DNA of 64,000 nucleotides from assembly GCF_026151205.1 (NCBI RefSeq), contig NC_087082.1, positions 4,905,908-4,969,907 on the forward strand. Reading direction: 5' to 3'. Positions within the stretch are counted from its first letter, which is position 1, and the number at the start of each line of letters is the position of its first letter. Both the position numbers and the translations under genes were made by a program. Below are positions 1 through 62,423 of the stretch, one piece after another. The DNA is from Bolinopsis microptera (taxonomy: Eukaryota; Ctenophora; Tentaculata; Lobata; Bolinopsidae). Below the pieces are notes generated by a model. That model had not been told where the DNA came from and did no database searches. It was given only the letters and a program-made list of their open reading frames with translations.

Positions 1-3000
1 TCAGGTGACGGACCTGTCTACCTGACAGGAACACACTCCCAAGAAATAGAGGAGGAGATGGACAGTGACGGTAAGAGCTTTTACAATTAGACGACTGATG
101 CCCCCCCCCCCCCCCCGACTGATGTCTAACATTTACAACATTCTGATATCCAGTCGCTGTTTTGATACATTTTTCTCTATTATCTAAGTAACTTACAAAT
201 TAACGATATTGCACTCCAAATGTAAAAGTTGTGTATAATCACTGTACAGATGAAGGTGAAGGTATGGAGGTGCCCCAGCTGGTAGACAATGAAGCTGAAG
301 AAGAAAGTGGTGAAGATGAAGAAGAATCATCATCAGATGATGAGGTGAGATCATTACCAAGTATATTAATGTATACTAATTTATATATAAGTTATTTTTG
401 TGCGGAAATGTAAGCTTTGGGACGTCAGACATTTTTACTGTGGAGCTATCTTTAACTGATGTTACATGAAAAGTTCAACATTTGTTATCTCATGGAATGA
501 TAGTCCATTAAATATTTGCCAAGCAAGTACAATAGATTTGAAGATCTAAAATATCATGCACACGGTCATTTCATTTCCTCAAATTACATGTCTTTATATT
601 TGGTATTTGCAGGAGATAGATGAGGATAAGATGTTGGAAGAACTGGCTGCTGCACAAGCAAACAAACTGAAGAGTTTCATGAAGAAAGACAAAAGTAAGA
701 TTATCATTCAGTTTTAAACGCTTCTCTGGGATCCAAACTTAATTATATACGTATAAGTACGTATATATAATAGTAAACGTATATTATATAATAGTTAATA
801 CGTATTATCCGTCGGTTTGGAAGTTATTTCAATTAAAATATAATTTTCAGAAGCGATCGCCAGCTCAAAGCCTGGCCCCGCCTCCAAAAAGGCGCCAAAA
901 CCTGAAACAAAGGTCGCAGAGGTAGTAGAAGAAGCAAAGGAAGAAGTACCAGCCAAAGAAGACGAAGAAATGGAAGAAGCACCTGCAGCCCCAGCAGAAG
1001 CAGTAGAGAAGAAAGATGAGCCAATGGAAGAGATAAACACACCTGCCGCTGCGGTGGTAGCTGAGGAAGAATCAGACGATGAAGAAGAATCAGGTATGAA
1101 ACATTTTCATAGAGCTCACAATTCAGTGGTTCTGTGTCTTTCGGGTGGTTTATCCTAATTTGCTATTTGTTCTTCTGTCCAGTTAAGGGGGGTATCTAAC
1201 CCCAAAAAACCCATTTAACCTCAAAAATTCCCATTTTAGGGTTGGGTTTTTTGGGGTCGGACATCCCCAGTTAAATTTTGTTTTCAGTAATGAATATTTA
1301 CAGATGAAGAGGATGACGACGATGAGGAGGATGATGACGAAGATGATGAGGATGAAGACGGTTTGTGTTAACTTTTCTCTGATTTCATGACTATCGGATT
1401 CTTCCCGCCTAGGCACATGCGTACTGACGGTCACAATTTAAACTTTAAGTTTGCGTCGCGCGCTGGTTATATTTCGTGTGAAAACTACGTTTTTCAGCGC
1501 TCGTCGATCAAAAATTTTCATTTTGCGCGGCTCATCTTACGAATTTTCCATGTGATGACACTCTTTAGGGGCCACCTATTTTAGTAAGGGGAAAAGTGGC
1601 ATTCCGTTGGATTCGAATGTTCACAAGGATTTCTCAACGGAATATGGTAGTTAGGACCCCTACGAACATAATTAGACTTGTTGCCAATTTTGTATCTCAA
1701 CGGAAACACCACTTTTACCACTTTTTACCACCTTTGTACCACCTTTCTGGTTTGCCAAATATCTTTAGTTGTGAACATCATAGAAGGCTGAAAATTAACC
1801 TAGAATGTTTATCTTATCAAGGAGTAAAACTTTTGTATCAAAAGTTTTTACATCGGACAATCAGCTAATTGGATAATTACCAATTAGTTAATCACCAAAA
1901 AAAGTGAAAATTTTTTATTGGCTTAAAATGATTGAAATCGTTTGAAACACGGAGAAATGTAGTTTTTAGAAAAACATCAAAAATTTTTCACTTAAATTTT
2001 TTTTTCGAGACTTGAAAAAAAGTTTGAAAATTTGAAAATATTTTTTTCCGCCAAAAGTGATCGAATTGCATGAAACGTGGATAAAAATGCCTTGCAGAAA
2101 AATTTCGAAGATTTTTAGATTGAGGAATACTAAAATCATCAATATTTGAAGTTGGAGTTCAGTAAATCTCGACATATTTTAGTAATTAGGAATAGCTTAG
2201 CGGAAAGGGCTGGACCTGAAAAAGGTTAACCACACAATATTAGACTTTCGTAACTAATTACAATACAGCTTTATCAAATTCCACATAAAGAAACAGCACA
2301 AAAGGACCATTTAAGATCGAACCGATTTTACCTGCTGTACTATCATTTTATTGATTTCAATGATCAAAACCTCTGTCAATCTTGCCAATCTATACCGGGT
2401 ATCTGAATGTACCGGACCTCTTATTTACCTCTATAATTAGACCCAGTTGTGCAAGAAATGCGATTTCTCACAGGGGTTTCTTTAAACTGTGCACTTTTTG
2501 TCACTCTCGCAACTCGCAAGAGGCCTGGTATTATAGGGGGGTATAGGAAGCGAGTGTAAATATACCTTCCATCATCCATTGTGGCTTTTTTGTATTGTGA
2601 ATGCGCATGCCGCTTCGTTTGCTATGCCATATACCTCGAATAACCCCCATATGTCATTGCCAGGGTCGGGATAGAGCTGGAGATAGCATTGAAAAGTTGC
2701 TAGAAATAGCTAGATTTAGAGTAAACTGGTGGTAGCTGGGTGGTGCTAGCATGGATGTAGCAGAACGTAGCTACACGGGGTTTCATTGGAGTTGGTTATT
2801 TTAATGGCCAAAGAGTGCCGGAACTAAAGTTACTTAAGATTGCAGTTTAGGGGCAGTGTAAACCACGGTGTAGTCAGGGACACAGAGCTACAGTGCAGGA
2901 GTACTGCAAAAGAACAGTGCAAGTGATACAGTCTGCAACAGTAAAACTCCGAAGAAGGAGATTCAGATAAGATTGTGGCTGCAGAGGAGGAGAGTAGCTG

Positions 3001-6000
3001 GAACCTGATTGTGTTTGTGTTGAAAGAAGAGGAGGAAGAAGAGTTTCCTGCTCTGGTAACTGTATTTTTGGAAGAGGTGGGGTGAGAACTTATTTTCAAG
3101 CGACAAGGGTGGGCTGGAAGCAACCAGATACAGCTATCCGACCTATTAAGATCACCGTCCTGAGCTTAACAGCATTTCATCAGAATCTTATGAAAACAGA
3201 GAGACTGACCCACCCTTTTTCGATCCAACGAAACCCTTTATATAAATCGACTTTTCTGCATGAATTACTTCATGGTATCTTCTTATCAAGGCTACAGACC
3301 TTGCCGTACCGGATTTATTGATCAAAGTGAGTCTCTTTAGCCCTCTTCTTCTTTAGAGCTTTAGGTTAGTGATCAAACTCTTCGCTACTCGCTCTTCACT
3401 GGATCTATCAGGACAGATTCACATCTTTTTAGGTCTCAACCAGCCTTAGTTTTCCTGTTTTCATCATGTAGTACGTTCTGCTACCTCCATTTTAGCACCA
3501 CCCAGCTTCCATCAGTTCACTCTAAGTCTAGCTTCGTCGGCGTTTTACTGTTGCAGACTGTATCACTTGCAGACTGTATCACTTGCACTGTTCTATTGCA
3601 GTACTCCTGCACTGTAGCTCTGTGTCCCTGACTACACCGTGGTTTACACTGCCCCTAAACTGCAATCTTAAGTAACTTTAGTTCCGGCACTCTTTGGCCA
3701 TTAAAATAACCAACTCCAATGAAACCCCGTGTAGCTACGTTCTGCTACATCCATGCTAGCACCACCCAGCTACCACCAGTTTACTCTAAATCTAGCTATT
3801 TCTAGCAACTTTTCAATGCTATCTCCAGCTCTATCCCGACCCTGGCAATGACATATGGGGGTTATTCGAGGTATATGGCATAGCAAACGAAGCGGCATGT
3901 GCATTCACAATACAAAAAAGCCACAATGGATGATGGAAGGTATATTTACACTCGCTTCCTATACCCCCCCTATAATACCAGGCCTCTTGCGAGTTGCGAG
4001 AGTGATAAAAAGTGCACAGTTTAAAGAAACCCCTGTGAGAAATCGCATTTCTTGCACAACTGGGTCTAATTATAGAGGTAAATAAGAGGTCCGGTACATT
4101 CAGATACCCGGTATAGATTGGCAAGATTGACAGAGGTTTTGATCATTGAAATCAATAAAATGATAGTACAGCAGGTAAAATCGGTTCGATCTTAAATGGT
4201 CCTTTTGTGCTGTTTCTTTATGTGGAATTTGATAAAGCTGTATTGTAATTAGTTACGAAACTCTAATATTGTGTGGTTAACCTTTTTCAGGTCCAGCCCT
4301 TTCCGCTAAGCTATTCCTAATTACTAAAATATGTCGAGATTTACTGAACTCCAACTTCAAATATTGATGATTTTAGTATTCCTCAATCTAAAAATCTTCG
4401 AAATTTTTCTGCAAGGCATTTTTATCCACGTTTCATGCAATTCGATCACTTTTGGCGGAAAAAAAATATTTTCAAATTTTCAAACTTTTTTTCAAGTCTC
4501 GAAAAAAAATTTTAAGTGAAAAATTTTTGAAGTTTTTCTAAAAACTACATTTCTCCGTGTTTCAAACGATTTCAATCATTTTAAGCCAATAAAAAATTTT
4601 CACTTTTTTTGGTGATTAACTAATTGGTAATTATCCAATTAGCTGATTGTCCGATGTAAAAACTTTTGATACAAAAGTTTTACTCCTTGATAAGATAAAC
4701 ATTCTAGGTTAATTTTCAGCCTTCTACGACGTTCACAACTAAAGATATTTGGCAAACCAGAAAAGTGGTACAAAGGTGGTAAAAAGTGGTAAAAGTGGTG
4801 TTTCTGTTGAGATACAAAATTGGCAACAAGTCTAATTATGTTCGTAGGGGTCCTAACTACCATATTCCGTTGAGAAATCCTTGTGAACATTCAAATCCAA
4901 CGGAACCCTTAAATCGACCACTTTTCCCCTTACTATTTTTAACGGCCAGGTAGCGCAGTTGGTTAGAACGCCTGTCTTACAATCGTTAGGTTGCGAGTTC
5001 GAAACCCACTGACTGCCTGGTCGTGGGGTGAGCGTCGTCGACGTTCAGCTAAGGATCATGAGTGGTCTATGCAGCCCCCCGGTCTACTCAGCCGAATACT
5101 CGAGAAATCGGGTGTGAGGGTTAAATGAGGAGCTGCACATTGCAGCAAAGTCTCGGACGAAGAAAGTATGGTACACACTACCTTAACCGTCACTGGCCAA
5201 AAAGATCCTTCGGCTTCCTGTAATTGGCTGGTTGCACTTGTGTAACATTGTGGCTGTTGGAATACACCGAAGTAAAATAAGTGTCTAGATAAAAAAAAAA
5301 AAAAAATTTAGGACGTCCGGCGAATGGGGGGGGGGGGGGGGGGGGGGGGTTTGGAATTTCGAACAAACCCGGGGAGGGGGGGGGGGTTGTTTCTGCAAAT
5401 CCGGACAGGGGGGGGGGGTGGTCTGAAAATCTGCCCCCTACAAATTTGTCCTCTGAAAAGCATTTCGATGGTGGCCTGTTTGTAAATTCACCCACTGTCT
5501 GCACACGATTACACACGAATATTGCCTTTGCTGTTCACTCCAGTTCGACATATTATATGAGACTATTCACACGTGTAAATTATCTATTCCTCAGGAGGCG
5601 AAGAAGTGGAATCTGATGATGAAGAAGAAGAAGATGACGATGATGAAGAGGATGGCGATGAAGAATCAGAGGAAGAGAGTGAAGAGGAGGCCGCTCCAGT
5701 TACTAAAAAGAGGAAAACCGAAGCTCCAGCCCCGGTAAGTTGTACGACTCAGCTTTTAACCTAGGCGAATCTATTTTTTGTTTTCCTTGTTTTAAATCGT
5801 CCCAATTCTTTACTGCTTGTGTAATAACAGCTTAGCATGTTGGTCATTCAAGAGATAATAAGGGATGAAATTTAAAACAGGAAACTTACGAATAAGGTAT
5901 TTCAAGTGAACCAACATGTAACAGCGTATTAGAGTTGTATAAACCTTGCAACAGAAAGCAGCTCAGAATCCAATAATCTATTTCCTATTTAATAAATCTT

Positions 6001-9000
6001 ATAACGATAAGATGCTAGCATGTAAAAACCAATCGCTGGCCCATATGAAATAACATTAAACTTAACATTACACTTTCATTAAAAGCAAAAAGAAGCCGGA
6101 ATCATGTTCCACAATCGTGTCCCTACTACACTGACGTATCAAGTCGGAATCTTACTTTCCATTTTAACGGTTGTGTTCTCCTTTTGAGGCGTATTTTCCT
6201 CTTCCACTCCATTATTCTCCGTCTTCCCAATCTTCAATAACATCACGAGCAACACACCGGCAGAAACAGTGCTGACAATAGCCACTACCATAAACAAGTA
6301 GTAGAGCTTTCTCTTTCTTATCTTTCCGTCTCCACCCTCTCTTGGACTGATACGTTTACAGAGCCTTGGTTTAGCATCCTCCGAACATGTCACTGTCTGC
6401 ACTGTTGTATAGTTGAGACTTGTCACTCCGTAACCCTGGTCACACTGTATCTCCACCTTGTTTCCTGGTAGGAATAAAGGGACGTTATCTTTGTTTTCAA
6501 CTCTTCCGTGAGGTACGGAGAACTGGTGTAGGGGGCAGGACTGAGCTCCAGTTTGTTCAGGCTCCTCAAAGCTTACCCCAAGAAGTGATTCTGCGTAATT
6601 GCCATTGCTAGTGAAGAGTATGTAAGATTGGTACGAGACCGAGTATATTGTGTGTCTTTCATAGTCTACTATCGACGATTCATTTGTCAAGAACATTATT
6701 TGTGGGTCCTCCTGGTTTGTCATTGAAATGTCCCGACACTTGGCCAATACAGCTCGAAATACTACCTCGTTCTTCTCGCTATAATGAACATCCAAACAAA
6801 AGTCCGGTCCTTTTACTGGTGTTATCTGATAATATTCTAAAGCGTCATTTTGGATCTCAACGGTTTTCAGCGCCCATCTGCCAGCTTCTGCGCAACTTTT
6901 CCAAGCCAAATGGTAAATTTCCTCCTTTACGTTCTGTAACGGTGTTTTGCGTTTAGTCAAACAAGCTAACTCTGCTCTGTCTTGCCGGATCAGAAATCCT
7001 GCTCCGGATTGACTTAGTGATACTACCTCTGAAATGCTCAATCCTGGAGTACTTCGTTGGACGTTCTCGATGCAGTACTTAAGAAGTGTAAAGTACAGGA
7101 GCCTTTCACGCTTTTGCTGTTTCGTAAGGAAATCTTGCGTGAATAAAGAACAAGTGCCGTTTGTGATATCGAACGAAAGAGCATAGCATTTGAAGATGTG
7201 TTTACAGTACAGCCAGCATTGGTGCGCCCCAGCCGTAGTGAAGGTGGCCAAGTGACTATCATCAGGAATTATTTTCCAGCCGGTTTTTAAACATGCTACA
7301 AAATTGTCATCTTTATCCAATGCACTGCACCTGCAAGCCTGAACTGCGATCATTAACACAAGAAGCGTTGTTGCGAATCCAGAGGACATTGCTACAAACG
7401 AATATTGTTGTTTAGCTACCACAGGCACTTTCCTAATATAAGAGATTTTAAGGAGTTGGTTTAGTGTCCTTAATATGGCCAGAATTTTGTCCCTTTTTCT
7501 CATTTATATAATTGAAGAGAACTGCAATAACCTTAATTCATCCTAATTTTTTGTGAAACTTATTTTCGAGATGGCATTTGACCAAAATATTTGGTCGCTC
7601 AATTGTTTTGGAAACTTAAATCAAAAATCAGCAAAGTAAATAAAGTGTGAAATGCGATTTTGCACCTATACCATCTTGAGCCTTATGCTCAAAAAATGAG
7701 TCTGCGACCACCTCAAAAATGTGGTCATGGGTTATAGATTGTTGGTCTTATCTCGAAAACACGTTTTACAATAAATCAGGGTGAACAGGCCTTACAAGAA
7801 AAAAAGTTCAAAAATTAAGCATTTGATATAGATTATCGTGCAAATAAAAATGGGCTATTCTAAAATGTTAGAGTGGCCCGTTGCCCGGGGCCCCATACAA
7901 ATTTTAAAGAAAATATTTTCAACTCTGGAAACATAAAAAGATAATAAAGGATCTTGAATTCTGCTGCTAAAAATAACTTCTCATTTTGAATTGTTTTTTA
8001 ATAATGTCCTGCGAACATCTGACCGTTCACGTGATGCGGTGATCTGTCACGTGGGCCAGTGACCGAGAGTGCCCATTGTCATGGATTTCAACTACGAAGA
8101 AAAGGAAGATGTAGAGGGCTGTGCTGAAAGATGGTTCACTTCGATGGCAAGAGAACTGAAATTAGAAAACTTCGAGATTCGTGGAAATATGGACCAGGAA
8201 ATACTCATGTCTCCGTCTATCTATAAAAGGTATATGGCAAACTGGGTTATGCAAGCAGCAGACCTCGTACGACGGCAGAGTAGTCAGATGAGCGCTATGA
8301 TGGAAATCGTTGAGTGCCTCAAGACGGAAGCACTAGCAGACAATGAAAAGATGGTCAGGTTGCAGGACCAGTTGCTAGTGCAGAAGGACGAACAGCTACA
8401 GTTGTTTAAGACGTTAGTTGAAGAGACAGTACAAACAACGGTGGAGACAGGAATTAAGAGCTACAGTGCAGCTGTACAAAAGAACAGCACAAGTGGCGCG
8501 GTCTGCAACAGTAAAATTCTGAAGAATGTAATGAAGAGTGTGGCTGCAGAGGAGGACAGGAGCAAGAATCTGATAGTGTTTGGTCTGAAAGAAGAGGATG
8601 AAGAACAGCTACCAGCTCTGGTAACCGCACTATTGGAGGAGATCGGGGAGAAACCTCATTTTGAAGCGACTAGAGTCGGCTGGAAGAGGCCAGGTACGGC
8701 TATCCGACCAGTCAAGATCACCGTCCCAAGCTCAACAGCAGTTCATCAGATTCTGATGAAAACAGGGAGACTGAAGATGGCTGATGCACACAAAAATGTA
8801 TGGATCTGTCCTGATAGATCCAGTGAAGAGCGTGCAGCAAGGAAGAACGTGGTAACTGACCTGAAGAAGAAGAGGGCTGAACAGACTCATCTCGACCACT
8901 ACATCCGTAACGGGAAGGTCTGTAGCCGGGTTAAGAAGACACCATGATGACGTAATTCATGTTTCTCGGACACCACCGATCAGTATAATATGTACTTGTA

Positions 9001-12000
9001 GGGGTATTTTAAGAGTTAACGGACGTTATCTGTATTTGAGAGACAATTATATTATATACATACATTATTATTTGATTGTTTCAAACTTTTCACATTTCAT
9101 AATTTTATTACTAGGTGGAGGTGATGTTATTGAGACTTTGGGCGGCCAAAAAACTCTTGTTCTGAAAGTTGTCCTCTGTACTTGTTTCACTGACCCACGC
9201 TTTTTAGCATTTATACATTTCGGCCCATTTTATATGTTTGTTCGAATTGCTGTACATTTGTATACTTGCTATTTTGTAAAAGTTTCAAATCAAATCATGA
9301 TAATATACGACAAGATTTGACAATATATGACAATACATGGCAATACTTGACACTATTTATTCGACAATAAACGACAACATTTGACAATATATGCCAATAT
9401 AAGACGATACATGGCGATACTTGACACTATTTATTCGACAAAAAACGACAATATTTGACAATATACGACAAAATGATATGACAATATACAACAAGATTGG
9501 ACAATATGCTACAAAATGATATGACAATATATGACAATATATGACAAAATACGACAAGATTTGACAATATACGACAGTATATGACAGATTGACAATAAGT
9601 GACAAACCGTGGGAAAATGGGCACTCTTGGTTCCTGCTCCACTTGTTAGTGTTATTTTTGTATTTAACAAGAAATATCATAAATATTCAATGTTAGCATA
9701 ATACTAGGTACAAAAGACTGGCTGAAAAACCTGTTGGATACATTTTAACGGAATTTATATATCGCGAGACAAATGGAAATGGTGTTTGTGACAGAAAGAA
9801 TAAGATCTGTACTAAAATGATAATTTGACGATGATTCAGATGTTTTTAATTTTTCTAAAAAGTATCTACAATATTCACGATCAGCAACTTTCTCCCGCGG
9901 TGTTTCAGCAGCATGAAATCCCCATCAACAATATTTGTTCGCATTCCCTCATCAGCAAGGAATACGTCTATCGCATCATTTCACAGCAGTGCCCCAACAA
10001 TCAACATCCAAATAATTTGTACCTCTTCCAGATTCTCCCCATTACGTTTTAACCCATCACCTGGACGCAAAAAAAAACACAAGTAATAACCACAGCTCAC
10101 TTCAAATTCATCTGAATGCATGGGGGCGGGGGGGGGGGGGGGGGGGGGGGAGTAATGACTACTTTTGGGGACTTGGGGAATTACGTCAACGATTTTACCC
10201 CGAGTCCCCATGATTTTTAGTCCCCATTAGTCCCCAAAAGTCTCCATTAGTCCCCATTTAGATTTCAAAAAAATCTGGCTTCTCCAGACCAGATCGTAAA
10301 CTTCTCAAGACTGAAGTCTAGAATATTTATCAATGGTCACTGGACATTCCTGACTTCTTGGGAGCTACTTGAGGGCTGTTAGAGTACCTCAGGTAAATTA
10401 AGGGAGGGGGCGGGGGCGACTACCAATGACAACATTGAGGAGACATATTGCATATATACGCTTATTTTATCAGATTGATCTAGTAACACGAGTTGTAGCG
10501 CAAGGAAAATAAACGCATTATCAAGGGGCCAGGGGGGGGGGGGGGCAACGCCCCAAAAAGCCCTACACATATAAAAAATCCGAAGAGGGCCCTAGAAATC
10601 GGGGCCTTTTGGGGCCTTTTGACCCTGTATTTTTGGCATGAATTTTGTTCAATTTAAAACAAATATACACGAATTTGAAAGATGTGAGAGGGATGTAATT
10701 CTTTTCATACTCGACTATCTGACAGAGAAATACATTCACCGGGGGGGGGGGGGGGATTTCAGCATCAGCATTCGATCAAGAAAGCGAAGCTGAGAGAGTG
10801 CAAATATCAAGATTGTCAAGGGTCGGGTCAAGTTTGTTTCGCAAAACTATACTCCAGCAAAGTTTGCTTATCCTGTACAAACCGGGGGGGGGGGGGGGGG
10901 GGGGGGGGTCCAACCCGATTTCCACATGAGTGTTGATGAGGCCAAAATCGGAAAAATCGGAAAATTGAGAAATTTACAGAATCGATCTCAAAAACCTCTC
11001 AAAAGGGATATAAGTCCTCCTCCTCCTTAGTCTTCCTCCTCGTCCTGAGTCCTCCTCCTCCTCCTCCGATCCTTCTCAGTCCTCCTCCTCTTCAGTCCTC
11101 CTCCTGACTCCTCTTCCTCATCCTCCTCCACCTCCTGAGTCCACCTCCTGAGTCCTCCTCCTCCTTCTCCTCCTCCTCCTCCTCCTCCTCCTCCTCCTCC
11201 TCCTCCTCCTCCTCCTCCTCGTTCTTCCTCTTCCTTCTCCTCCTCCTTCTCCTCCTCTTTCTTCTCCCTATCAGTCCTCCTCCTCAGTCCTCCTCATAGT
11301 CGACCTCGTCCTTAGACCTCGTCCTCGTCCTCCTCCTGGGTCCTCCTCCTGAGTCCTCCTGAGTCCTCCTCCTTCTCCTCCTCCTCCTCCTCCTACTCCT
11401 CCTCATTCCTCCTCTTCCTTCTCCTCCTCCTTCTCCTCTTCCTTCTCCCTATCAGTCCTTCTCCTCAGTCCTCCTCACCCTCCACCTTAGTCCTCATTCC
11501 CCCTCCTCCCCCTCAGTCTTACTCCCAGTACTCCTTCTCCTCCTCCTCCTCCTCCTCCTCCTCCTCCTCCTCCTCCTCCTCCTCCTCCTCCTGCTCCTCC
11601 TCCTCCTCCTGCTCCTCCTCTTCCTCCTGCTCCTCCTCCTCCTCTTCCTCCTCCTCCTCCTCCTTCTCTTCCTCCTCCTCCTCCTCCTCCTCCAGTGTGA
11701 CATAATCATGATTGAGTCGATCCAACGCTCATTCACTGCAAAAATAGCAGGATACAAGTATCTTAGCTACTGGGAGCGCCTGAAGCAGCTTGATCTCTAC
11801 TTCCTACAGCGCCGCCGCGAGAGGTACACGATCACACTTGTCTGGAAAATTTACTACGGTGAGATTCCCAACAGTGTAAACATTACTTTCCAACACTCTC
11901 AAAGAAGAGGAGTTACATGTCTTCGTCCTCTTGGCGGATCAAAATACAAAAGCACCAACACCATGAGGTTTCATTCTTTCCCTTTAGTGGCCTCTGCTTT

Positions 12001-15000
12001 GTATAACGCTGTGCCTCACGACATCAAGTCTATCCCAACCTTGCCAAAAATCCTCCTCCTCAGTCCCCAGTCCTTCTCCTACTCGTCAGTCCTCATCCTC
12101 AGTTCTCCTTCTCCTACTCCTAAGTCTTCCTCCTCGTCAGTCCTCCTCCTCTTCTCAGTCTTCCTCCTCCTCCTCCTCATCCTAATCAGTCCTCAGTCCT
12201 CCTCATCCTCCTCAGTCCTCTTCCTCAGTCCTCCTCCTCCTCCTCCTGCACGTCAGCCCTCCTCCTCCTCCTCCTCAGTCCCCAGTCCTTTTCTTACTTG
12301 TCAGTCCTCATCCTCCTCCTCATCCTCATCCTCCTCCTCAGTCCCCAGTCCCCCTTCTCCTCCTACTCCTAAGTCCTCCTTCTCCTCCTCCTCAGTCCTC
12401 CTCCTCTTCCTTCTCATCAGTCCAGCCCCAGTCTTCCTTCTCCTCTTCCTTCTCATCAGTCCTCCCCCAGTCTTCCTTTTCTTCATCCTCAGTCCTCCTC
12501 ATCAGTGTTCTTCCTCCTCCTTATCCTCGTCATCAGTCCTCTTCCTGATCCTCCCCCAGTCTCCTTCTCCTCCTCCTCCTCTTCACTCATCCTCAGTCCT
12601 CCCCCAGTCCTCCTCTTCATCAGTCCTCCTCCTCGTCCTTAGTTCTCGTCCTCATCCTCCTAGTCCTCGTCCTTAGTTCTCGTCCTCATCCTCCTAGTCC
12701 TCGTTCTCGTCCTCCTCAGTCTTCTTCCTCAGTCTTCCTCAGTCTTCCTCAGTCCTCCTCCTCAGTCCCTCAGTCCTCCTTCTCAGTCCTCTTGCTCCTC
12801 AGTCCCCAGTCCTCTTCTACTCGTCAGCATTCTCCTCATCATCCTCCTCCTCATCAGTCCTCCTCCTCCTCAGTCTCCTCCTCAGTTCTCCTCCCCCTTC
12901 TCCTACTCCTAAGTCTTCCTCCTCGTCAGTCCTCCTCCTCAGTATTTCTCCTCCTCCTCCTCCTCTCCAGTCCTTTTCCTCCTCCTCATCCTCCTCAGTC
13001 CTCAGTTCTCCTTATCCTCCTCAGTCCCCTTCCTCTGTCCTCCTCCTCAGTCCTCCTCCTCAGTCCCCAGTCTTCCTCCTGCACGTCAGTCATCCTCCTC
13101 ATCCTCATCCTCCTCCTCCTCCTCAGTCCTCCTCTTCCTTGGAAGTTCAGACTGACAGCACGGGTAGAGATCAGAGCTTAAGTCCCCCCCCCCCCCCCCC
13201 CTAATATGCAATATGGTACAACATTAAATTAGATAGCTCCACCCTGTTAGATCATTGCTTTTCTCTATTTGATAGTGTTTATGGACCACATTCTCCATGT
13301 AATACACTCAAATAAACATAAAAGTACTGTGCAAGTAGTCAGATAATATCATTTAAGCACTTAGCATATATCAAACTTGATGAAATTGAAGTTAATTCTA
13401 GGGCCCCAAAAGGCCCCACACAATACACATATCGAAATCCATAAAGGGCCCTAGAAATCGGGGCTTTTTGGGGCCTTTTGGGGCGTTGGCCCCCCCGCCC
13501 CCCCCCCCCTATCAATTTTTCTTATTACTTTTGTATTGATTTGTCTGAAATGATATGCTCAGTAATTTGAAATTGGCGTTGGTTTCTTTTGTTTTTGACG
13601 ATCATTGATGGAAATATTCACAAAAGAGTGCTTGTCAGTGCTTAAAATAAAGATCATTCAAGTCTGTTCACAGAACGGCTGTTATAAATACTCATTCACC
13701 CATCATCTAACATCTTTAAGTGTATTAGGAGGGTAAGTCGAAGGGTTAATTCATGATTTTTCAGCGAGTCGGCTACTTCTACCTACTTCTACCTTCACGA
13801 GAGCTAAACTTCAATTAACCTCAATTTGAACTGACTTGTACAGTGGTAGAACACATTACAACCGGGCTTATCATTTTACTTTTAAGTCAGATTTATCCTA
13901 CTCTTATCTTGGACAAAACATCTCGATCGTATTGTTATTAAACTAACTTGAAAACCATGAATAACTGTCAAAAATTCTGGGGACTTATGGGGACAAATGG
14001 TGAATTACGTCAACGAGTTGACCTCTAGTCCCCATGATTTTTAGTCCCCATTAGTCCCCAAAAGTCTCCATTGGTAGTCATTACTCCCCCCCCCCCCCCC
14101 CCCCCCCCCCGAATGCATTTATAAGTATTATTTAGGGGGGGGGGGGGGGGGTACCACTGTCCATTTTATCCCTGCACAAAAAAAACTGGACAAAGACAAA
14201 AGGGACAAAAAAAAGATAATAGGGACAAAAAAGACAAAAAAGACGGGGACAAAAAGGACAAAATGGACAAAAAGGACAGGGACAAACGAGACAAATAGAC
14301 AGGGACAAAATGGACAGTAAAGAAAATAAGGTCAATTATCCGTTGAAATGCAAAAAATAAGTTCAGGCACAGTTCCAACAAGCTAATTATAAGTTGGGTA
14401 AATTCAGACAGAACAGTAAAGTCAATCTTGATTATATATAATCAGCCTTAGTGTACTCACTGTTCAAGACAACTTGGTCTAGTCCGATATGCCTGCTCAC
14501 TGATTCACATTTGACGTATGAGCTATTAACTTGATGATGACTTTTTTGATATCACCACTTGATTAATGGGATTAATGAAATATTGACTGAACCGTGTACA
14601 CATTTATTTATGTGATGCCGTTGATGAATTCTGCTTATTTCAGTCCCTTCAGTGGTTTCAGTTGATTCTAAGTACAGCAAAACACTGACATGAACCCACA
14701 TCCAGAAACACGCCATCTTGCCAGGCAGCCTGGGAGGAAATTTTTTTTGGGAGGAAAAACGGGAGAAAAAGAGGAAATTTTTGAGAAGTTACTCCTAAAT
14801 TTCGAAATATTTTTTTGGAATGAAGACAAATTAATGGAGGAAATTTTTGAAGAAAATGTTTCGATTGTATAAAAAATCAAAGAGGAACATCCTGTCAGTT
14901 TTGGAACACAGTGAAATATTCTGATTGGAGAATGCAGATTGCTGTTGTGAAGTTATCAAATTTACGTGAGTACTTGATTCTTTTCAATCCCAGTTTATTG

Positions 15001-18000
15001 CTGTCCTACAAATTTCTTTAATGCCAAATGCCGTCTAAAACACCCTATTTCGCAAAAAATTTCCGGGGGGCTGCGCTCCCTAGCCCCCGCCAAGGGGCTT
15101 CACCCCTGGACCCTGCTGGGGGCTGCGCCCCCAGACCCCTGCCACAGCTTGCTCGCTACGCTCCCTGCGCAGCTGGATTGGACACGTCGACTTGCTTCGT
15201 TCGCCGACAGCCCCCTTCCCAAACTTGCGAGTGAAGCGAGCGGGCCACAGAATTTAGAAAAAAACGCATCTGGGAGGAAATATAAAACTTTCTGGATGTG
15301 GGGACATGAAAATCTAAATTGTTGATGTCGAGTAGAATATATACATTCTCTACATTTGAGCTTGTCTAATTTTTTGTCTCATTTGTCCAAAATTTTTGTC
15401 CATTTTGTCCATTTTATCCCCAAAACACTGTCCTTCACAAAAAAATGTAAAAAAAGACAAAATGGACAGTGGTACCCCCCCCCCCCCCCCCCCCCCCCCC
15501 CCCTTTAGGTAACATTGTATAGGAGTTGTAAAAACCTTGAAATAGGTGCCCTAGTGGTTAGAGCATCTGCCTTCTGCGCAGAAGGTTCAGGGTTCGAATC
15601 CCAGTGTCACCTAGTCTAGGAAGTAGCTAAGGATCCATAATTGGATCTATTCGATCTCCTCGGTCGATTCAGCCGAATGATAAGAAACTTGATTTAGGGT
15701 GAAATGAGGAGGGGTACCTGTTAAAAGTTCAAGAAACTTCCTAAGATACCCCTTCAGTACATACTGTAAACAAAGTACTATTATTATTATTAACAGAAAG
15801 CAGCTCGATGACTGATTTCCTATTCAATAAATCTTATAACGATAAGATGCTATAGCTAGCACTTACAAATCAATCGCTGAATTATCATAAAACTGTTAAC
15901 ATTGTTCTTTCATCAAAAGCAAAGAAAATACGTAATCATGTCCCACAATCGTGTTCCTACTGACATATCAAGTCGAAATCTTACTTAACATTTTAACGGT
16001 TGTGTTCTCCTTTTGTAGTTTCCTCTTCCACTCCATTATTCCCCGTCTTCCCAATCTTCAATAACATCACGAGCAACACACCGGCAGAAACAGTGCTGAC
16101 AATAGCCACTACCATAAACAAGTAGTAGAGCTTTTCCTTTCTTATCTTTCCGTCTCCACCCTCTCTTGGACTGATGTAACGTTTACAGAGCCTTGGTTTA
16201 GCATCCTCCGAACATGTCACTGTCTGCACTGTTGTATAGTTGAGACTTGTCACTCCGTAACCCTGGTCACACTGTATCTCCACCTTGTTTCCTGGTAGGA
16301 ATAAAGGGACGTTATCTTTGTTTTCAACTCTTCCGTGAAGTACGGAGAACTGGTGTAGGGGGCAGGACTGAGCTCCAGTTTGTTCAGGCTCCTCAAAGCT
16401 TACCCCATGAAGTGATTCTGCGTTATTGCCATTGCTAGTGAAGAGTATGTAAGATCGGTACGAGACCGAGTATATTGTGTGTCTTTCATAGTGTACTATC
16501 GATGATTCGTTTGTCAAGAACATTATTTGTGGGTCCTCCTGGTTAGTCATTGAAATGTCCCGGCACTTGGCCAATACAGCTCGTAACACTGCCTCGTTCT
16601 TCTCGCCATAATGAACATCTAAACAAAAGTCTGGTCCTTCTACTGGTGTTATCTGATAATATTCTAGAGCGTCATTTTGGATCTCAACGGTTTTCAGGGC
16701 CCATCTGCTAGCTTCTGCGCAACTTTTCCAAGCCAAATGGTAAACTTCCTCCTCCACGTTCTGTAACGGTGTTTTGTGTTTAGTCAAACAAGCTAACCCT
16801 GCTCTGTCTTGCCGGATCAGAAATCCTGCTCCGGATAGACTTAGTGATACTATCCTCTGAAATGCTCAATCCTGGAGTACTTCGTTGGACGTTCTCGATG
16901 CAGTACTTAAGAAGTGTAAAGTACAGGAGCCTTTCACGCTTTTTCTGTTTCGTAAGGAAATCTTGCGTGAATAAAGAACAGGTGCCGTTTGTGATATCGA
17001 ACGAAAGAGCATAGCATTTGAAGATGTGTTTGCAGTACAGCCAGCATTGGTGCGCCCCAGCCGTAGTGAAGGTGGCCAAGAGACTATCATCAGGAATTAT
17101 TTTCCAGCCGGTTTTCAAACATGCTACAAAATTGTCATCTATATCCAATGCACTGCACCTGCAAGCCTGAACTGCGATAATTAACACAAGAAGCGTTGTT
17201 GCGACTCCAGAGGACATTGCTACAAACGAATATTGTTGTTTAGCTACCACAGGTACTTTCCTAAGAGATTGTAAGGAGTTGGTTTAGTGTCCTTAATATG
17301 GCCAGAATTTTGTCTCTTTGCAAATTTTCACTTATCTAATTGAAGAGATCTGCAATAACCTTAATTCATCCTAATTTTTGTGAAACTTATTTTCGAGATG
17401 GCAGTTGACCAAAATATTTGGTCGCTCAATTGTTTTGGAAACCTAAATCAAAAATCAGAAAATTAATTAAGTGTGAAATATGATTTTGCGCCTATCTTGA
17501 GCCTTGGGCTTGTGAGTCAAAAATTGACCAAATACGAGCATTACTGCACCATTGAGCGTCCGGGTCCCCCTCAAAAGTTAGGTCAAGGGTCATAGTTTTT
17601 GGTTAACTGGTTATCTCGAAAACACGTTTCTACAATAAAAAAAATAAATCAGGGTGAATAGGGCTTTACTAAAAAACAAGCCTATTTCAAGTATCTAGAT
17701 TTGCTAAAGAAAAAAGTTCCAAAATTAATTAGATTTAGAATCAAATTTACACTGCAATAAAATGAAAATAGTAAACAATTTAGAGATGCTCCGATCTGCT
17801 CACTGCTGTGCAGGACATTCGAATCAGTCAAAAATTGTCGAGTCAAAGAATGCCCTTTTAAGGACTAAGAGAGGGCCGGGACTACGAGTGCCCATTGTCA
17901 TGCTACAAAACGGTAATCTTTATCCAATGCACAGAGGGTGGGGGGGGGGGGGGGTAATGGCATAAATGGAGAATTACCCAAGGTTTTTCCATTTTCTCCA

Positions 18001-21000
18001 TAGAAAGAGTCTCCATTTATGCCATTCAAAAACTGAAAGATACAACATACTGTACTCAATTTTGTTACAAAATTTTGATCTTTAAGGACGAAATAATTTA
18101 AATACAATATTCATCTAGTAAATAGAATGTAAATATCATTTCGAACACCAAAAAAACAATTTACCAGCTTGAACACAAGGGTCCCCCCCCCCCCCTTGTA
18201 AATTTTGAAAAAATTGTAAAATAATTTGTTTTTCAAATATCATAATTTTGGTACTAAACGTTTTGCCTTTCCATGCTGAAAACAATCATTTAAAAATATT
18301 TCCAAGATTTATAAGTTTTCATGCTTTCTATCCCGATTTCGAAGTCCCCACATCACCCTCGATATGCGATCTTGGAGTCGAGGCTTCCCCTTTGTAATGC
18401 GATCTCGAAGGGCAGGCCTCCTGTATGCAATACGAGCTCGGGAGCAGTGAGTCAGCCTTTACCTATCAATCGAATAACTCAGGCCGAAAATTTTCTTAGT
18501 CAAAAACTTTAAGTGGTTTTCCTGGAAACCACTTTTCTCCAGTGTTCATGTTACTTTGATCATTATGAGCCGAAAATATTTTTCGGGACCTAGCCCTCGA
18601 TAATTTTTCCTGAAAATTAATGAAGTTTCTGATTGACATCCGGCCAAGCACCTTCTTAACTACTTACTATAGCCGGATATTCGATCGATTCCTAAATTGT
18701 ATCACTATCAGAGTGAAATTGAGTGGAATTTGAATTGCAAAATTTACACAGCAATACAATAAAAACAGTAATTAATTTAAAGATGCTTCGATCTGCTGTG
18801 CAGGACATTCAAATCAAGCCAAAAGTGTTTAAATAATAGAGTGTTATTAATAGAGTGCCCTTCTAAGGACTAAGAATCAAAACATATAGTATTATATAGT
18901 ATTATATATCTATACTATAATTTAAACTTGACGAAATTTCCCCGGCAACGGGGACATAGAAGAAAAAACACCGAAAATCCGACCTCAAAATGAAGCCTCT
19001 GGTGAAATCAAACCCAGCTCGCAAATGGAGTTGAAAACCTCGCCATTTTTTAGCAGGGTTGTAGAAAAAGGGATAGAATAGGCTATAGCATTCTTAGGAA
19101 TTTTGATTTAGGCTTTAGATTTTTTATAATTAACGTCGGAAGTGAGGTAAAATAACCGTTAGAATAATGTCGTTTTTTAGCAAAGGTTTACTGCGCTGTT
19201 GCGTAGCAACGTAAAAGTGCATCGTGCGCGAGCAAAAACATCTTAACTACGCGCGTTGTTATGCTGTATGCTACGTCATAAATTCAAAACTAGCTCACAT
19301 TTACGCTTCACGCTATGACTTATTTCATAACTTTGGTTGTGATTGGTATTTTTTGATGCGGTAAAAAGTATCGTTTTGGGAATCCGAATACTAACACGCT
19401 TCGCCATTGTTAGATAAATCCATTATGTCTACAGTATAACAGAGCTATATGATGAGAGGAGAAATTAAAACATAACTGATTTTTAAAATTTCCTCGAACA
19501 AAGCTTTCGACTAGCGGGTTTCTAGTAAATAATAAGTTAATGAGTATAAACTATGGTATGTTGGTTTAATTAAGCATTTGATATAAATTATCGTTCAAAT
19601 AAAAAGAAGCTATTCTGAAATGTTAGAATTGACCCGTTGCCCAATACAAATTTTAAAGAAAATATTTCCAACTCTATACATAAAAGGAGAGTATAATGCT
19701 TTGCAGGGGTGTAGGAAGCAGGGGGGGGGGGGGCCAATTGCCCCCCCCCCCACCCCCATAAAATCTGGGCAAGGGGAAACATTTTTATCCAATGCACTGC
19801 ACCTGCAAGCCTGAACTGCGATCATCAACACAAGAAGCGTTGTTGCGACTCCAGAGGACATTGCTGCAAACGAATATTGTTGTTTAGCTACCACAGGCAC
19901 TTTCCTAGAAGATTGAGGGCACTTTCAAAAACATCTGTCACGGAAAAAATTTTAAAATTTGTCAAAAATCAGATTTTGTGGCATAATTTGGTGGATAATT
20001 TTTGGAACGGGATGAAACTTCAGATATGGTGTGCTAAACCCTAACCTTTACTATCTCCACTTTTTGTTTCGATTTAGGGCTAAATCTGGTGGATAAAAGT
20101 GAAACAGACCGATCCACTTCAGGTGGGCCTTTAAAAATATTTAATTCCATCTAAACTCCTAAAATTGATTGAGACTTATAAATAATCGTTATAACTTCAC
20201 AATTTCATATGTTAGGCCGGGATTTTTTTTAAGGGCCAAATTTGGTGGATATATTTTTTTACATCTTTTTTAAGACTGTTATTTGTTAGCTAACATCAAT
20301 TAACTGGTCTTAAAATGGTGCAAAAGCAATGTTAAATCTATTGGCATCAACTATTAAAGTTCGAAGATTCAATTTAAATGGGCAAACTTTGGTGGAAAAA
20401 AGTCAATTTTAAATTAAATTTAACACGTAAATGCTCCCAAAAAATCAATAAATAATCATAAACATGATTAAAAACCATTTGAAAAAATGAAATAAAAGGA
20501 TGTTGAACTTTAAATGTAAAAGGAAAGAAATGGTTTTTTAAGCTTTTGGGGCCAATTTGGGGGATAATTAACTCAAAAATATTTAAAATATGACCGGTAT
20601 TTTGATACCCAAAATCAATTTTGGGCCCTTTAAAAAAGTCGGTTTGGGAGTTTATCAAAATTTTTTTGGCTGAAAAAGAAAAAGGTCTAAACAAACCCAA
20701 ATTTTCCAGTATATGATTTCAAAATTGGGGCAAATCAAAGGCCAGAAAAAGTGGATAAAAAAGGGAAAATTTTAAAACCCGGGTTTTTTAAGCTAATTTC
20801 TTAGGAAATTTACCCCCAAAAAAAACCGGCCCAAAAGGGAGAAATTTGGGGGCAACTTTATTTGGGAAACTATACCCCCTTTCTTTAGGGACCCAGGGGC
20901 AATAATTTTCAGCTCTTTGGGCCCCTTTAAGAAATAATTTTTTGGTTTTTAAAAAAGGGGAAACCCACATACGTTATCAGTAAAGAAATGGTTTTTTCCC

Positions 21001-24000
21001 AAACGGAAGGGAAGGTTACCCACTTTTAAATTTATCTCCCAAATTTTTTAAACCTTAAAAGTCTTTTGGGAAACTGAAAATTTCTTTTTGAACGGGACTC
21101 AGAAAAAAGGGATTTTCTATTAAAACATTTGTAGTTTTCATGATAGAACACATTTTGGGGCCAAAAAAAATTTGTAAAAAAAAGAAATTTTCCCTTTTTG
21201 TAGGGTTTTTAAAATCCACCAAAAACGGCTCTAAAGGCTGAAAGGAGACATTTGTTAATTTGGGTATGAAACTTTATCCTTTTCTTTAAAGGCCCCTAGA
21301 GCAATAAAGGAATACATTTCCGCTTAAAGACGAAAAAAGGGGGCCCTAAAAAAGGGGATTCCCCAGCATTTTTGACTCAAAGGACTTCCCAAATCCCTTT
21401 CCCCGGGGGAATTTTTTGACCGGGAAAAGTGGGGGGTTTTTAGGGAAATTTTCCGCCATATTTTTCCCGAACCCCCCAATTTTTCACCCGGCGTTAATAA
21501 ACCCCCTACCGGGGCTTTTAGGTTCCCAAAGGGGAAATGGGGGGCTCTTTTTTTTAATCGTTTCTTATATTCACTAAAGAAGACTACCTTACTCGGATTA
21601 TTACGACGGGGTTTATTAACGACCGTTAAAATATGGTTCGGGAAAAATATGGCGAAATTGCTCAAAACCCACCACATTTACCGGTCGCCATTTTACCGGT
21701 GTCCAACCTTTCAATTTTAGATTCAAAAATTTTGTCTCAGATGTAAATTTCCTTATTAGAGATAAGCAAGTTTAGAAATTTTCGCATTGCTAAACTTGTG
21801 AAACAAGTCGAATTATCAATAATTGTTGAAAGTAGACAGAAATAATGACTCGTGGGAATCAAACAAGATGGAAAATAATTACATTTGAAGCGTAACAACC
21901 AGATCGATATCTTACTATATTTAAAGCGAGACATATATATATATATATTTATCTGTGCCATTTTACTGACACCAAGGCATCATCTTTAAACGCAACTTTC
22001 CCCGCAAAAACCGTAAAAGATATACAACTGAAATTTGTTTGACTGAGTCAAATGCTTTTATGCTTTTCAAATCAGCATGAAAAAATAAAAAATTGGCCAA
22101 GGAATAATTATTTTAGTGCCCAAAATTTGGACCCCCAAGTGGTGTCAAAAACGCGAATTAAATAGGTAATAATTATTTTAGTCTCTTGAGTCTTGACACC
22201 ACTTTAGAGTAATACGGGTTCCTGTTAGTTAAGATAAAGGGAGAGCTGTTTAGTCTTCCAATAAGTTGTAATCATCTTCGTTATCTTCATCTGGATCATC
22301 CCTTTCATCAGTTTTAATTAATTCAAGTTTTAATTTAACTGTTACTTTACTTTGAGTCCTATTTCATTATGTAGAGATAGTCATACCTAAGAAATTAAAA
22401 ATTGGCCTATTTAAATCAAATTTGACAATAAGGATATATTGACAAGAATTGGCAAAAAGGTGAATTTTTTGCAATTTTTAGCCAAATGAAGTCGAAAAAC
22501 CTACAACAAGTGTCCCAATACTAATAGTCTTCTTTAGTGAATATAAGACAACGATTAAAATATGAGCAACCCATACCCCTTGGGAACCCTAAAAGCTGAG
22601 TAGGCGGGTTTATTAACGACCGGTGAAAATGTGGTTCGGGAAAAATATGGCGAAATTACCCTAAACCCACCACTTTATCCCGGTCATAATAATCCCGAGT
22701 AAGGTATTGGGACACTTGTTGTAGGTTTTTCGACTTCATTTGGCTAAAATTGCAAAAATTCACCTTTTTGCCCATTCTTGTCATATATCCTTATTGTCAA
22801 ATTTGATTTAAATAGGCCAATTTTTAATTTCTTAGGTATTGACTATCTCTACATAATGAAATAGGACTCAAAGTAAAAGTAACAGTTAAATTAAAACTTG
22901 AATTAATTAAAACTGATGAAAGGGATGATCCAGATGAAGATAACGAAGATGATTACAACTTATTGGAAGACTAAACAGCTCTCCCTTTATCTTAACTAGC
23001 AGGAACCCGTATTACTCTAAAGTGGTGTCAAGACTCAGAGACTAAAATAATTATTACCTATTTAATTCGCGTTTTTGACACCACTTGGGGTCCAAATTTT
23101 GGGCACTAAAATAATTATCCTTGGCCAATTTTTATTTTTTCATGCTGATTTGAAAAGCATAAAAGCATTTGACTCAGTCAAAAAATTTCAGTTGTATATC
23201 TTTTACGGTTTTTGCGGAAAGTTGCGTTAAAGATGATGCACTAATTTTGGGCACTAAAATAATTATTCCTTGGCCAATTTTTATTTTTTCATGCTGATTT
23301 GAAAAGCATAAAAGCATTTGACTCAGTCAAAAAAATTTCAGTTGTATATCTTTTACGGTTTTTGCGGAAAGTTGCGTTAAAGATGATGCCTTGGTGTCAG
23401 TAAAATGGCACAGATAAATATATATATATATATCGTCTCGCTTTATATATAGTAAGATATCGATCTGGTTGTTACGCTTCAAATGTAATTATTTTCCATC
23501 TAGTTTGATTAACCACGAGTCATTATTTCTGTCTACTTTCAACAATTATTGATAATTCGACTTGTTTCACAAGTTTTAGCAATGCGAAAATTTCTAAACT
23601 TGCTTATCTCTAATAAGGAAATTTACATCTGAGACAAAATTTTTGAATCTGAAATTGAAAGGTTGGACTCCGGTAAAATGGCGACCGGTAAAATATGGTG
23701 GGTTTTGAGCAATTTCGCCATATTTTTCCCGAACCATATTTTAACCGGTCGTTAATAAACCCGTCGTAATAATCCCGAGTAAGGTAAAATCATTCTTGAA
23801 GCTCGAATATATCCACCAAAAATGGCCTAAAAATTAAATCTTCTATGCTATAATAAGCTTGAAACGATTTCCAACCTGATCCGTTCACTGAGTAAAGCTG
23901 GTGAACTTGTTGACCAATATAATTTTTTCAGTTGAAAATTTTAGGTATTGAATTTTATTTCATCGTTTTATTATCCACCATATCTAGCCTTAAAATTGGA

Positions 24001-25036: not shown

Positions 25037-28000
25037 ATGAGACGGGTTGTGCTCCTCTGTATTAGTGTTTACTTTGTCCACGGCACACTAGAGCCCCTTA
25101 CTAAAGAGGAAAAGAAGAAAGGCAAGGAGAAGAAGGTATGTACGACACCCCCCCCCCCCCCCCCCCCCCCCCCTTAATTCAGTAGAGGACTACTGCACAA
25201 TAGAGAGCTATTTTAGGGTTCGATCCGATTGATTAATAGTCACTATTGACCAATCGAACCGAACCACAAAACTATTGACTCTAGTGGAAGCTGATTGATT
25301 TATTGCTGTGACAAAAAATTATATAAATATGGTCACCTCTCCACCAGCATCTATGATATTAAAATTTATTTGTCAGTTTGCGGCCTGTATTATACTGTTC
25401 TTCTATTCAGCACCTGAACAAAAGATGCGAGAGCATTGTGCTGATGATTGGATCTTTGATCATTCTCGAACTGTACTACGAAATACATACAATCACGTCA
25501 TATTAATGATTTCAAAACAAATGAAAATAATATTATTTTTGCAGGAGCAAAGACCGATCCTAAAAACAGTCGGTGAACGAGGTCTCATCAACACGGAGCC
25601 CACTTCTTGGGCTGAAGTAACAAAGAATTATAAGAAGTACAGTAGAAACCATGTTGACAAGAAGATGTTTAAAGGTGACTTGTTGGGTTTTGTCACACCT
25701 TGGAATAACCATGGTTACGACGTTGCTAAGACGTTTGGTGCTAAGTTCAACTACATTTCCCCAGGTTAGTTTTACTATGAGTTCCAGTACTTACTTGGTA
25801 TTTTTGTTCGATGTAAAGTCACAAGATAAACAATCTTTGAATTTAGAAAAAAGGGCGTTCCCAGGGCGTTCACGGTTCATCCCGTTTAATCTTTAAAATC
25901 AGGTAATATACAGGGTGGGCCAAAAGTCAGTACCCATACTATACGTTGGGTCTTATACCTCCGCCTTGTTTTATATTTGAGATTTGTTGCTTAGGGGGGG
26001 GGGGGGGGGGGGGGGGTTCACCCTGATTTTTTTGTGAAACTTGGTTTCGAGATAGCAGTTGACCAGGGGCGGTTTGGCGGTTGGGGTCCCGCTCAATCCA
26101 GGAGCCTAAGTAAGTAGATGAAATCATCTACATTTTCTATGGCTTCCCCGGATCGACTTTGTAGGTCGCTAGATCGATCCTCCATATTCAGTGTCATGAC
26201 CTTGGTCTTGCCTTCGTTTATGTGTAGTCCCACGCTTGCTGCCGCCGATTCTACTCTGAGCAGGAACTCCGAGTAGATCACCAAATTTGATCGATTTTGG
26301 CCCATAAATTGGTCAAATATCAATATTTTTGAATGAAACCAACTTTATATGGAAGGTTAGCTTATACTACACATTATTTATGATTATCAGCTCTGTATCT
26401 ACCTAACTAAGGATTCTGTGTTCAAATAATCGCAAAAAATGAACAAAATTGCCCATATCTCAGTTCACGATATTTGCAAAACTGACTTCGCTCAAAACAA
26501 TAGAACTCAATAGGGTTTCAATATTTTTTCATGAAATTTTCAGAATCAACGTAGAATTGTCTCATGACCTTAAGTTTTGGGACAGAATTTTGAGTTAGGC
26601 CTTTAAAAAAATTTGGCGGCCAAATTCTAAATTTAGCAGTGCAAATTTTGGAATTTGGCCGCCAAAATCGATCAAATTTGGTGATCTACTCTGAGTTCCT
26701 GCTCAGAGTAGAATCGGCGGCAGCAAGCGTGGGACTACACATAAACGAAGGCAAGACCAAGGTCATGACACTGAATATGGAGGATCGATCTAGCGACCTA
26801 CAAAGTCGATCCGGGGAAGCCATAGAAAATGTAGATGATTTCATCTACTTAGGCTCCTGGATTGAGAGCACATATAGGGAGGTAAGGGTAAGAAAGGGAA
26901 AAGCGTGGGGTGCCCTACATAGACTGAAGGATATCTGGAAATCCAAACTCTCAAAGAGCCTCAAGATTAGATTGTTCATAGCGGCTTGTGAATCAGTACT
27001 GCTCTACGGATCAGAAACCTGGACACTGACAAAGGCTCAAGAGAAAAGTTTGGACGGGACATACACGAAGATGTTGCGTATGGTGCTGGGTATCTCATGG
27101 AAGGACAAGGTCAGCAATATAACTTTGTATGGTAGCCTCCCAAGGCTGTCAAACAAGTTACGAAGCAGGAGATTAAAAATGGCGGGACACTGCATCCGAC
27201 ATTCTGAGCTACTTGCCAGTGATTTAGTCTTATGGGAACCTACGCACGGTAGAGCACAGCAAGGCCGACCAAGACAAAGCTACTTGTCTATGTTACTGAA
27301 GGAAGTTGGGACAAACTCTAAAGAGAAACTGCGAACCCTGATGCGGGACAGGGATATATGGAGGGGGTTTTCTGGCGTAGATCGGACTTAGCTCCGACAT
27401 AGTAGTAGTAGTAGTAGTAGTATTTGGTGCGTATGCCCAAATATGGTCATATGGTTTTTTGCTCATAACTCAGTCATTTTTTGTCCAATCTTGATGAAAA
27501 TTCATATACGAGTTCAGGGAACCACTAGCTACAAGTAGAGTACCTAAAATCTGGATTTTCGGCATGTTCAGGGTATTTGGCTAAATTGGGCCTAATTTGG
27601 ACCAAATATGGGCGTGGCTGCCCCGCGAGCACCGTTTGGCGGTTAGGGTCCGGGACCCCCTCAAAAGTTCGGTCACTGGTCCTAGTTTGTTGGTCAACTG
27701 CTATCTCGAAACCAAGTTTCACAAAAAAATCAGGGTGAACCTCCCCCCTTAAGGGGGCCGGGGGGGTCTTCATCAAAATTCTCTCGAAATTGACTTTATA
27801 GTTGTTTCTGGTAGAAGGGGGTGATATCTACCAGCTGCTTTTGATATCTACCAGCTGCTTTTGGTCCAATGGAAAAATATTGTTCCTAGCCGAAATTATC
27901 GCCGGTCTAAGGTCAGCGCTTATGTGTAATTGTATTGTTCGAGCGATTTTCAATCGCAAATTCTGAAAATCGAGTCGAAAAATCTATCTTCTCCTACATT

Positions 28001-48742: not shown

Positions 48743-62423
<13,681 letters not shown>

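Follow-up and report, generated by a model that had tools for sequence, protein, structure and literature searches.

Results

Elements ending in G and C runs

The DNA analysed, here called the window, is a stretch of 64,000 nt (GC 39%) from an assembly of 265 Mb in 232 contigs, with about 97.5% of its sequence in the 13 large ones. It contains six inverted-repeat elements with a run of G at the left end and a run of C at the right, adjoined by exact 8-bp or 6-bp target duplications, and a seventh at a TTAA target site. The common plan is a duplication, a G run, a unique inverted repeat, a C run and the duplication again. Elements of this kind had been claimed in a first-pass annotation, and the claim is borne out: the named tips and duplications are present (GAATGCAT, ACTATATA and TATATAGT of 8 bp; TATCAA, TTTAGG, TGGTTA and AGTTAA of 6 bp), and the tip patterns occur far above their reversed controls. 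Coordinates are those of the window, and no strand is assigned to the elements.

A AATGACTAC-family element at 10122-14110 (left tip G5-C-G23, right tip C25) is flanked by the 8-bp duplication GAATGCAT (10114-10121 and 14111-14118) and carries nested within it a CAACGCCCC element at 10525-13509 (left GGGGCCA-G14, right C7-G-C12), which has its own 6-bp duplication, TATCAA (10519-10524 and 13510-13515). A second copy of this composite begins at 63199 and is cut by the window end at 64000 (tips G10 and C30). The two copies agree fully over the final 419 bp, and the 3.4 kb before that are 92.9% identical, repeats included. The second copy has another 8-bp duplication, CCAGCATC (two C of which overlap the right run), in place of GAATGCAT. 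The composite with its nested passenger moved as one unit.

Next to the first copy lies a TACCACTGTCC element at 14135-15503 (G17, C29) with the 6-bp duplication TTTAGG, two G of which overlap the left run. A CAATGGCATAAA hairpin of 142 bp at 36307-36448 (left G7-A-G17, right C24-TT-C5) is flanked by ACTATATA (36299-36306 and 36449-36456), a CCAATGGCATAAA element of 1311 bp at 36983-38293 (G11, C18) by TATATAGT (8 bp; 36975-36982 and 38294-38301), and a AGCCAAGTGG element of 390 bp at 53213-53602 (G8, C7) by TGGTTA (6 bp; 53207-53212 and 53603-53608). The seventh, a TCTTCATC element at 27753-28455 (left G5-CC-G7, right C12-TCGG-C5), has TTAA at 27749-27752 and 28456-28459 and was absent from the first list of duplications. 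Directly before it, an element at 25994-27748 with tips G23-TTCACCCTG and CAGGGTGAACCT-C6 has the flanks CTTA and TTAA, and so no exact duplication. Other bases interrupt the run at 10122-10150 and the runs at both ends of 10525-13509 and of 36307-36448. A further CAATGGCATAAA-family copy at 17940-18026 consists of a left tip (G15) and the hairpin core without a right tip; a C13 at 18183 was considered as its mate and rejected.

The 82-bp hairpin at 1187-1268, whose coordinates had been given for the class, is the weakest of the set. It is indeed a repeated hairpin flanked by AGTTAA (1181-1186 and 1269-1274), and of 97 candidate places 40 were scored, which gave 38 further copies at 79-89% identity. 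As an example of homopolymer ends it serves less well: the runs are G6 on the left and C4 on the right, the arms are imperfect, and the duplication can be read as AGTTAA, CCAGTTAA or TTAA. Its ends are not settled, because many alignments of the copies start 3 bases outside the G run and most end before the C end.

A G6/C7 pair at 2536 and 3970 was rejected as a pair of element termini, since both runs belong to the 1.37-kb arms of a foldback at 1582-4935. Long foldbacks occur at 21585-23786 and 29768-32494 as well, the arms of the three being about 0.5 to 1.4 kb with 89-98% identity. A 31-bp near-palindrome, G13-CCAATTG-C11, lies at 19721-19751 without a clear duplication.

Inverted-repeat candidates without G tips are found at 14695-15302 in the window (duplication GACATGAA) and at 25982-26417 in an unselected 40-kb sample of contig C5 (duplication CCCTTAAC). 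The scan for such repeats gave mostly palindromes within long arms, and the two remain candidates because about as many were counted in a shifted control (79 in the window). G tips, though common here, are not universal.

Copies across the genome and their target duplications

Searches of the whole genome with four exact tip patterns gave 359, 246, 88 and 41 matches, against 1, 1, 0 and 0 for the same patterns reversed. The 246 are AATGACTAC tips, and all four patterns require six G, so that copies without a run go uncounted; a single-G end was seen once (locus L115). A typed pattern, G8-N9-C8, gave 152 matches versus 64 for its reverse, overlapping shifts being counted in both. With core-only queries, which contain no part of the run, at least one run tip was found in 29 of 30 loci of the AATGGCATAA family (including the window's own copy; the exception, L030, has no tip) and in 30 of 30 loci of the AATGACTAC family (two of them from the window and one a duplicate of a window copy).

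Inspection of the flanks for 6-8 bp duplications, as had been proposed, found them directly outside the runs in many copies of several families. Of the 18 paired copies in the AATGGCATAA family, 17 are flanked by a duplication of 8 bp or more and one, L017, by none (two of the 18, L023 and L024, share one insertion site, and a row that paired tips of two elements was dropped). The AATGACTAC family has at least 8 bp in 10 of 13 paired copies and 7 bp in one more. The remaining two AATGACTAC copies stand head to tail at 1480-2250 of locus L055, the C run of one joined directly to the G run of the other; no duplication separates them, and GACAGACT flanks the pair as a whole. A 6-bp duplication fits six of seven AGCCAAGTGG pairs, the remaining pair giving 5, and is present in both of the two TACCACTGTCC pairs. 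A further family, seen in the flank of locus L036, has the tip G7-ATGCAACG, a C11 and the duplication TCTAGTA or CTCTAGTA.

Long G runs are hard to sequence, and long G/C runs are frequent in this assembly, as would be expected if the runs were sequencing or assembly artefacts, or homopolymers already in place that were hit by insertions. Such an origin is contradicted by the exact non-G duplications on both sides of the runs in many copies; moreover, the core-only searches recovered runs on nearly every copy, and insertion into homopolymers would leave G on both outer sides. We consider it extremely unlikely. The same duplications bear out the proposal that the homopolymers are the ends of mobile elements, though assembly error may remain in the precise length given for a long run.

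Target sites of 8 bp, of 6 bp and of TTAA occur among the families, so that transposases of more than one superfamily are probably involved; the earlier suggestion of one class served by one unusual transposase is not supported.

Run length and the interrupting base

The AGCCAAGTGG family is young, being 98-100% identical to the query at the 40 places scored (of 178 candidates). From 34 slices and the window copy, 46 tips could be read. Thirty-five of them have an A between the run and GCC, and their run is G7 in 18 and G6-G8 in 26; one has G4 and eight have G9-G24. In the other 11 tips a G stands in place of the A, which joins the run to the G behind it and gives at least nine G in a row. These tips all lie at G9-G27, with a median of 12, one of them reaching the slice end and hence giving a lower bound. 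The difference between the two groups has a Mann-Whitney p of 5e-5, with tips that are not independent of each other (common descent, paired ends). Thus a single interrupting base separates short stable tips from long variable ones, the signature of slippage that sets in above a threshold length.

Tip lengths in the two largest families are broad, 5-112 (41 tips) and 3-36 (50 tips), with no ground state, and their runs may have been born at a different length. Within a copy, the length of the left run shows no clear correlation with that of the right (Spearman 0.25, p 0.32, 18 copies).

The same insertions compared

A second version of the block from about 8.6 to 15.5 kb of the window (runs were read over 10.1-15.5 kb) lies some 56-57 kb upstream on the contig that holds the window (L047, L121 and L122), and window 1165-1290 recurs at the same distance. 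Part of the window therefore lies within a segmental duplication, which allows the same insertion to be read twice. Run lengths differ at seven of seven long runs in the block (23/15, 14/11, 15/17, 25/24, 25/34, 17/14 and 29/36), and among these the internal, non-tip runs have changed too (15/17 and 25/24). For the left part of the block, an alignment of 3,107 columns has 14 mismatches and opens 29 gaps. Other pairs with shared flanks gave G 19/26 with C 15/15, 13/14, and 7/7, the G7 being stable. Assembly error could add to the spread between copies.

Comparison of L122 (C11:4864340-4864440) with window 15475-15520 shows that the two sequences diverge past the poly-C of the TACCACTGTCC element, and the segmental duplication seems to break exactly at that homopolymer.

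Length variation of this kind fits slippage, as A-interrupted tips stay near G7 and single insertions vary, and there is no need for the replication-based mechanism that had been raised for these elements. Two observations sit less well with slippage, namely the eight A-interrupted tips at G9-G24 and the tip pair that kept C15/C15. A different origin of the lengths would be untemplated tailing, in which C residues are added to the free 3′ ends once the transposon has been excised, and the G strand is synthesised by fill-in when these have been joined, so that every insertion starts with G/C ends of random length. The C run on both 3′ ends, the unequal ends of a copy and the broad lengths in the two largest families would all agree with it. 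It would predict neither the sharp G7 mode of the AGCCAAGTGG family (18/35), where length depends on one interrupting base, nor the changes at non-tip runs in the same duplicated block, and we regard tailing as very unlikely. Slippage at the tips is the reading that we favour.

Search for a coding partner

The search for an autonomous copy coding for a protein between such ends, suggested with the original observation, found neither such a copy nor a transposase among the loci read. By eye, none of the 60 longest open frames in the loci that were fetched looked like a transposase; the frames listed resembled reverse-transcriptase pieces, tandem repeats and host genes. All six frames of loci L114 and L115 were compared with Pfam, again with no transposase. 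A 143-aa frame in L114, a copy of 2.97 kb, was considered as the coding partner and set aside, as it has no Pfam match and none of its six homologue candidates is significant.

Among the first 100 of the 246 AATGACTAC tips, at least five pairs lie 14-21.5 kb apart (C1:13029993, C2:9030632, C2:14528353, C3:422024 and C4:11096583). They were rejected as a long autonomous element: at the two pairs read, the sequence beyond one run is repeated in inverted orientation beyond the other, and hence the run there lies inside the longer terminal repeat of a large element. A 2.2-kb piece of one such pair has no frame above 92 aa.

G/C tracts across the genome

Tracts of at least 18 bp number 9,546 for G/C and 1,395 for A/T in the 265 Mb, or 36 versus 5 per Mb, and the window itself has 35 G/C runs of at least 10 against 4 A/T runs. 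In the accessible part of a study of Caenorhabditis poly-G/poly-C (PMC2211496), tracts of at least 18 are likewise far above expectation for G/C and not for A/T, with 396 G/C tracts in the 100 Mb of C. elegans compared with 9,546 in 265 Mb here. Some of the tracts here are transposon ends; the word stem 'transpos' is absent from the text of that paper (PMC2211496).

Most tracts show no partner. In the unselected C5 sample none of the four G/C runs of at least 12 has an inverted partner. The fetched DNA had been selected around tips, and 82 of its 151 runs of at least 10 belong to the four families; a partner was found for 10 of the other 69, partners outside the 3-kb loci being missed. Of neighbouring tracts no more than 2 kb apart, among 100 of at least 18 taken from the start of contig 1, 5 pairs read G-then-C, 3 C-then-G and 18 the same letter twice, giving no sign there that most tracts are element ends. 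Element tips are one part of the genome-wide excess of G tracts and not its sole source.

A homopolymer flanked by its own 8-bp duplication was found once among 253 G/C runs of at least 7 (301,003 bases), with a mean of 0.005 and a maximum of 1 in shuffles. This case, at window 93-124, is a bare C16 (101-116) with GACTGATG on both sides, as if an element had left the homopolymer alone. As a single case among the 253 runs it led us to reject homopolymer-only insertions as a general class.

The distribution of tracts bears on whether the G tips have a function, that is, whether transposases or a host factor need the tract. Several superfamilies would then have arrived at it by convergence, with selection during transposition maintaining runs of sufficient length. 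G tips are carried by families with different inner sequences and three target-site classes, and only one of the 46 AGCCAAGTGG tips is below G6, as a functional tip would predict. It would not predict tracts so common away from tips (59 of the 69 other runs partnerless in the fetched DNA and 4 of 4 in the C5 sample), the candidate elements without G tips at window 14695-15302 and C5 25982-26417, or the single-G end in L115. A functional tip seems to us unlikely. A wider proposal is doubtful to the same degree: G tracts at transposon ends would be used by the transposases or by a host factor, which would have led several unrelated superfamilies of this lineage to converge on G tips, and transposition would then seed unstable tracts across the genome that act as rearrangement breakpoints.

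Discussion

The elements have terminal inverted repeats with flanking target duplications and exist in many copies without transposase coding, as MITEs do. They are probably non-autonomous cut-and-paste DNA transposons, namely MITEs with somewhat larger deletion derivatives, that belong to more than one superfamily and fall into at least three classes by target site, and slippage would lengthen the G runs at their tips. In each family the inverted repeat would start with a short G run, the ground state being G7 in the AGCCAAGTGG family, the sole one where it is visible. A transposase supplied in trans would cut at the outer edge of the run, and the ends would be joined to a staggered target to give the 8-bp, 6-bp or TTAA duplications. 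Runs near 7 would then be stable, and those beyond about 9, for example where the interrupting base has become G, would grow or shrink by replication slippage, the same process as in long G/C tracts elsewhere in the genome. Because no transposase or autonomous copy was found among the loci read, the argument for cut-and-paste is one from anatomy.

Slippage does not explain why G stands at the very tip of several families, and it is this point that keeps the system of interest. The tract as the very terminus, in several unrelated families, is unusual. An unstable homopolymer end also poses the question of how a transposase finds the outer edge of a run that changes in length. As the duplications mark the exact edge of the run, the copies form a natural series for measuring slippage, the threshold near 8-9 G and the effect of an interrupting base. 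Elements with G tips are, in addition, one possible origin of the G/C tracts whose abundance in some animal genomes lacks an explanation.

Several known systems can be compared with these elements. PiggyBac and Kolobok are TTAA-specific superfamilies, and the likeness is confined to the TTAA duplication at 27753-28455, where the tip is G5-CC-G7 and no transposase was seen. hAT transposons make 8-bp duplications, with a hAT dimerisation domain in the partner, and are likened to the elements here by duplication length alone. Polinton/Maverick elements are 15-20 kb long, make 6-bp duplications and carry polymerase and integrase genes; three families here have 6-bp duplications, and the largest of their copies that were read are about 3 kb and show none of these genes.

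Merlin/IS1595 elements, which are reported from ctenophores, duplicate 8-9 bp of their target, and their inverted repeats end in a conserved GG, according to the accessible part of the source (PMC8101967). The AATGGCATAA and AATGACTAC families resemble them, judged by ends alone, in the 8-bp duplication and the terminal GG of the inverted repeat. They differ in the G homopolymer at the tip, which that part of the source (PMC8101967) does not describe, and Merlin does not account for the 6-bp and TTAA families. The Ac-mMITEs of pineapple are, in the part of the report available, high-copy non-coding inverted-repeat elements linked to simple repeats and inserting into (TA)n (PMC8449440). In these microsatellite-associated MITEs the repeat is the site of insertion, whereas here it forms the end of the element itself. 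None of the titles and abstracts listed from the literature searched, which covers subscription journals thinly, dealt with transposons that end in G homopolymers.

Other features of the window

A tandem array with a 41-bp unit extends for about 2.1 kb at 58932-61015. Two copies of a sequence at 5950-7806 and 15792-17680 are 89% identical and hold a 454-aa frame with a weak Sushi match, and a reverse-transcriptase frame (Pfam RVT_1) lies on the minus strand at 50835-51929.
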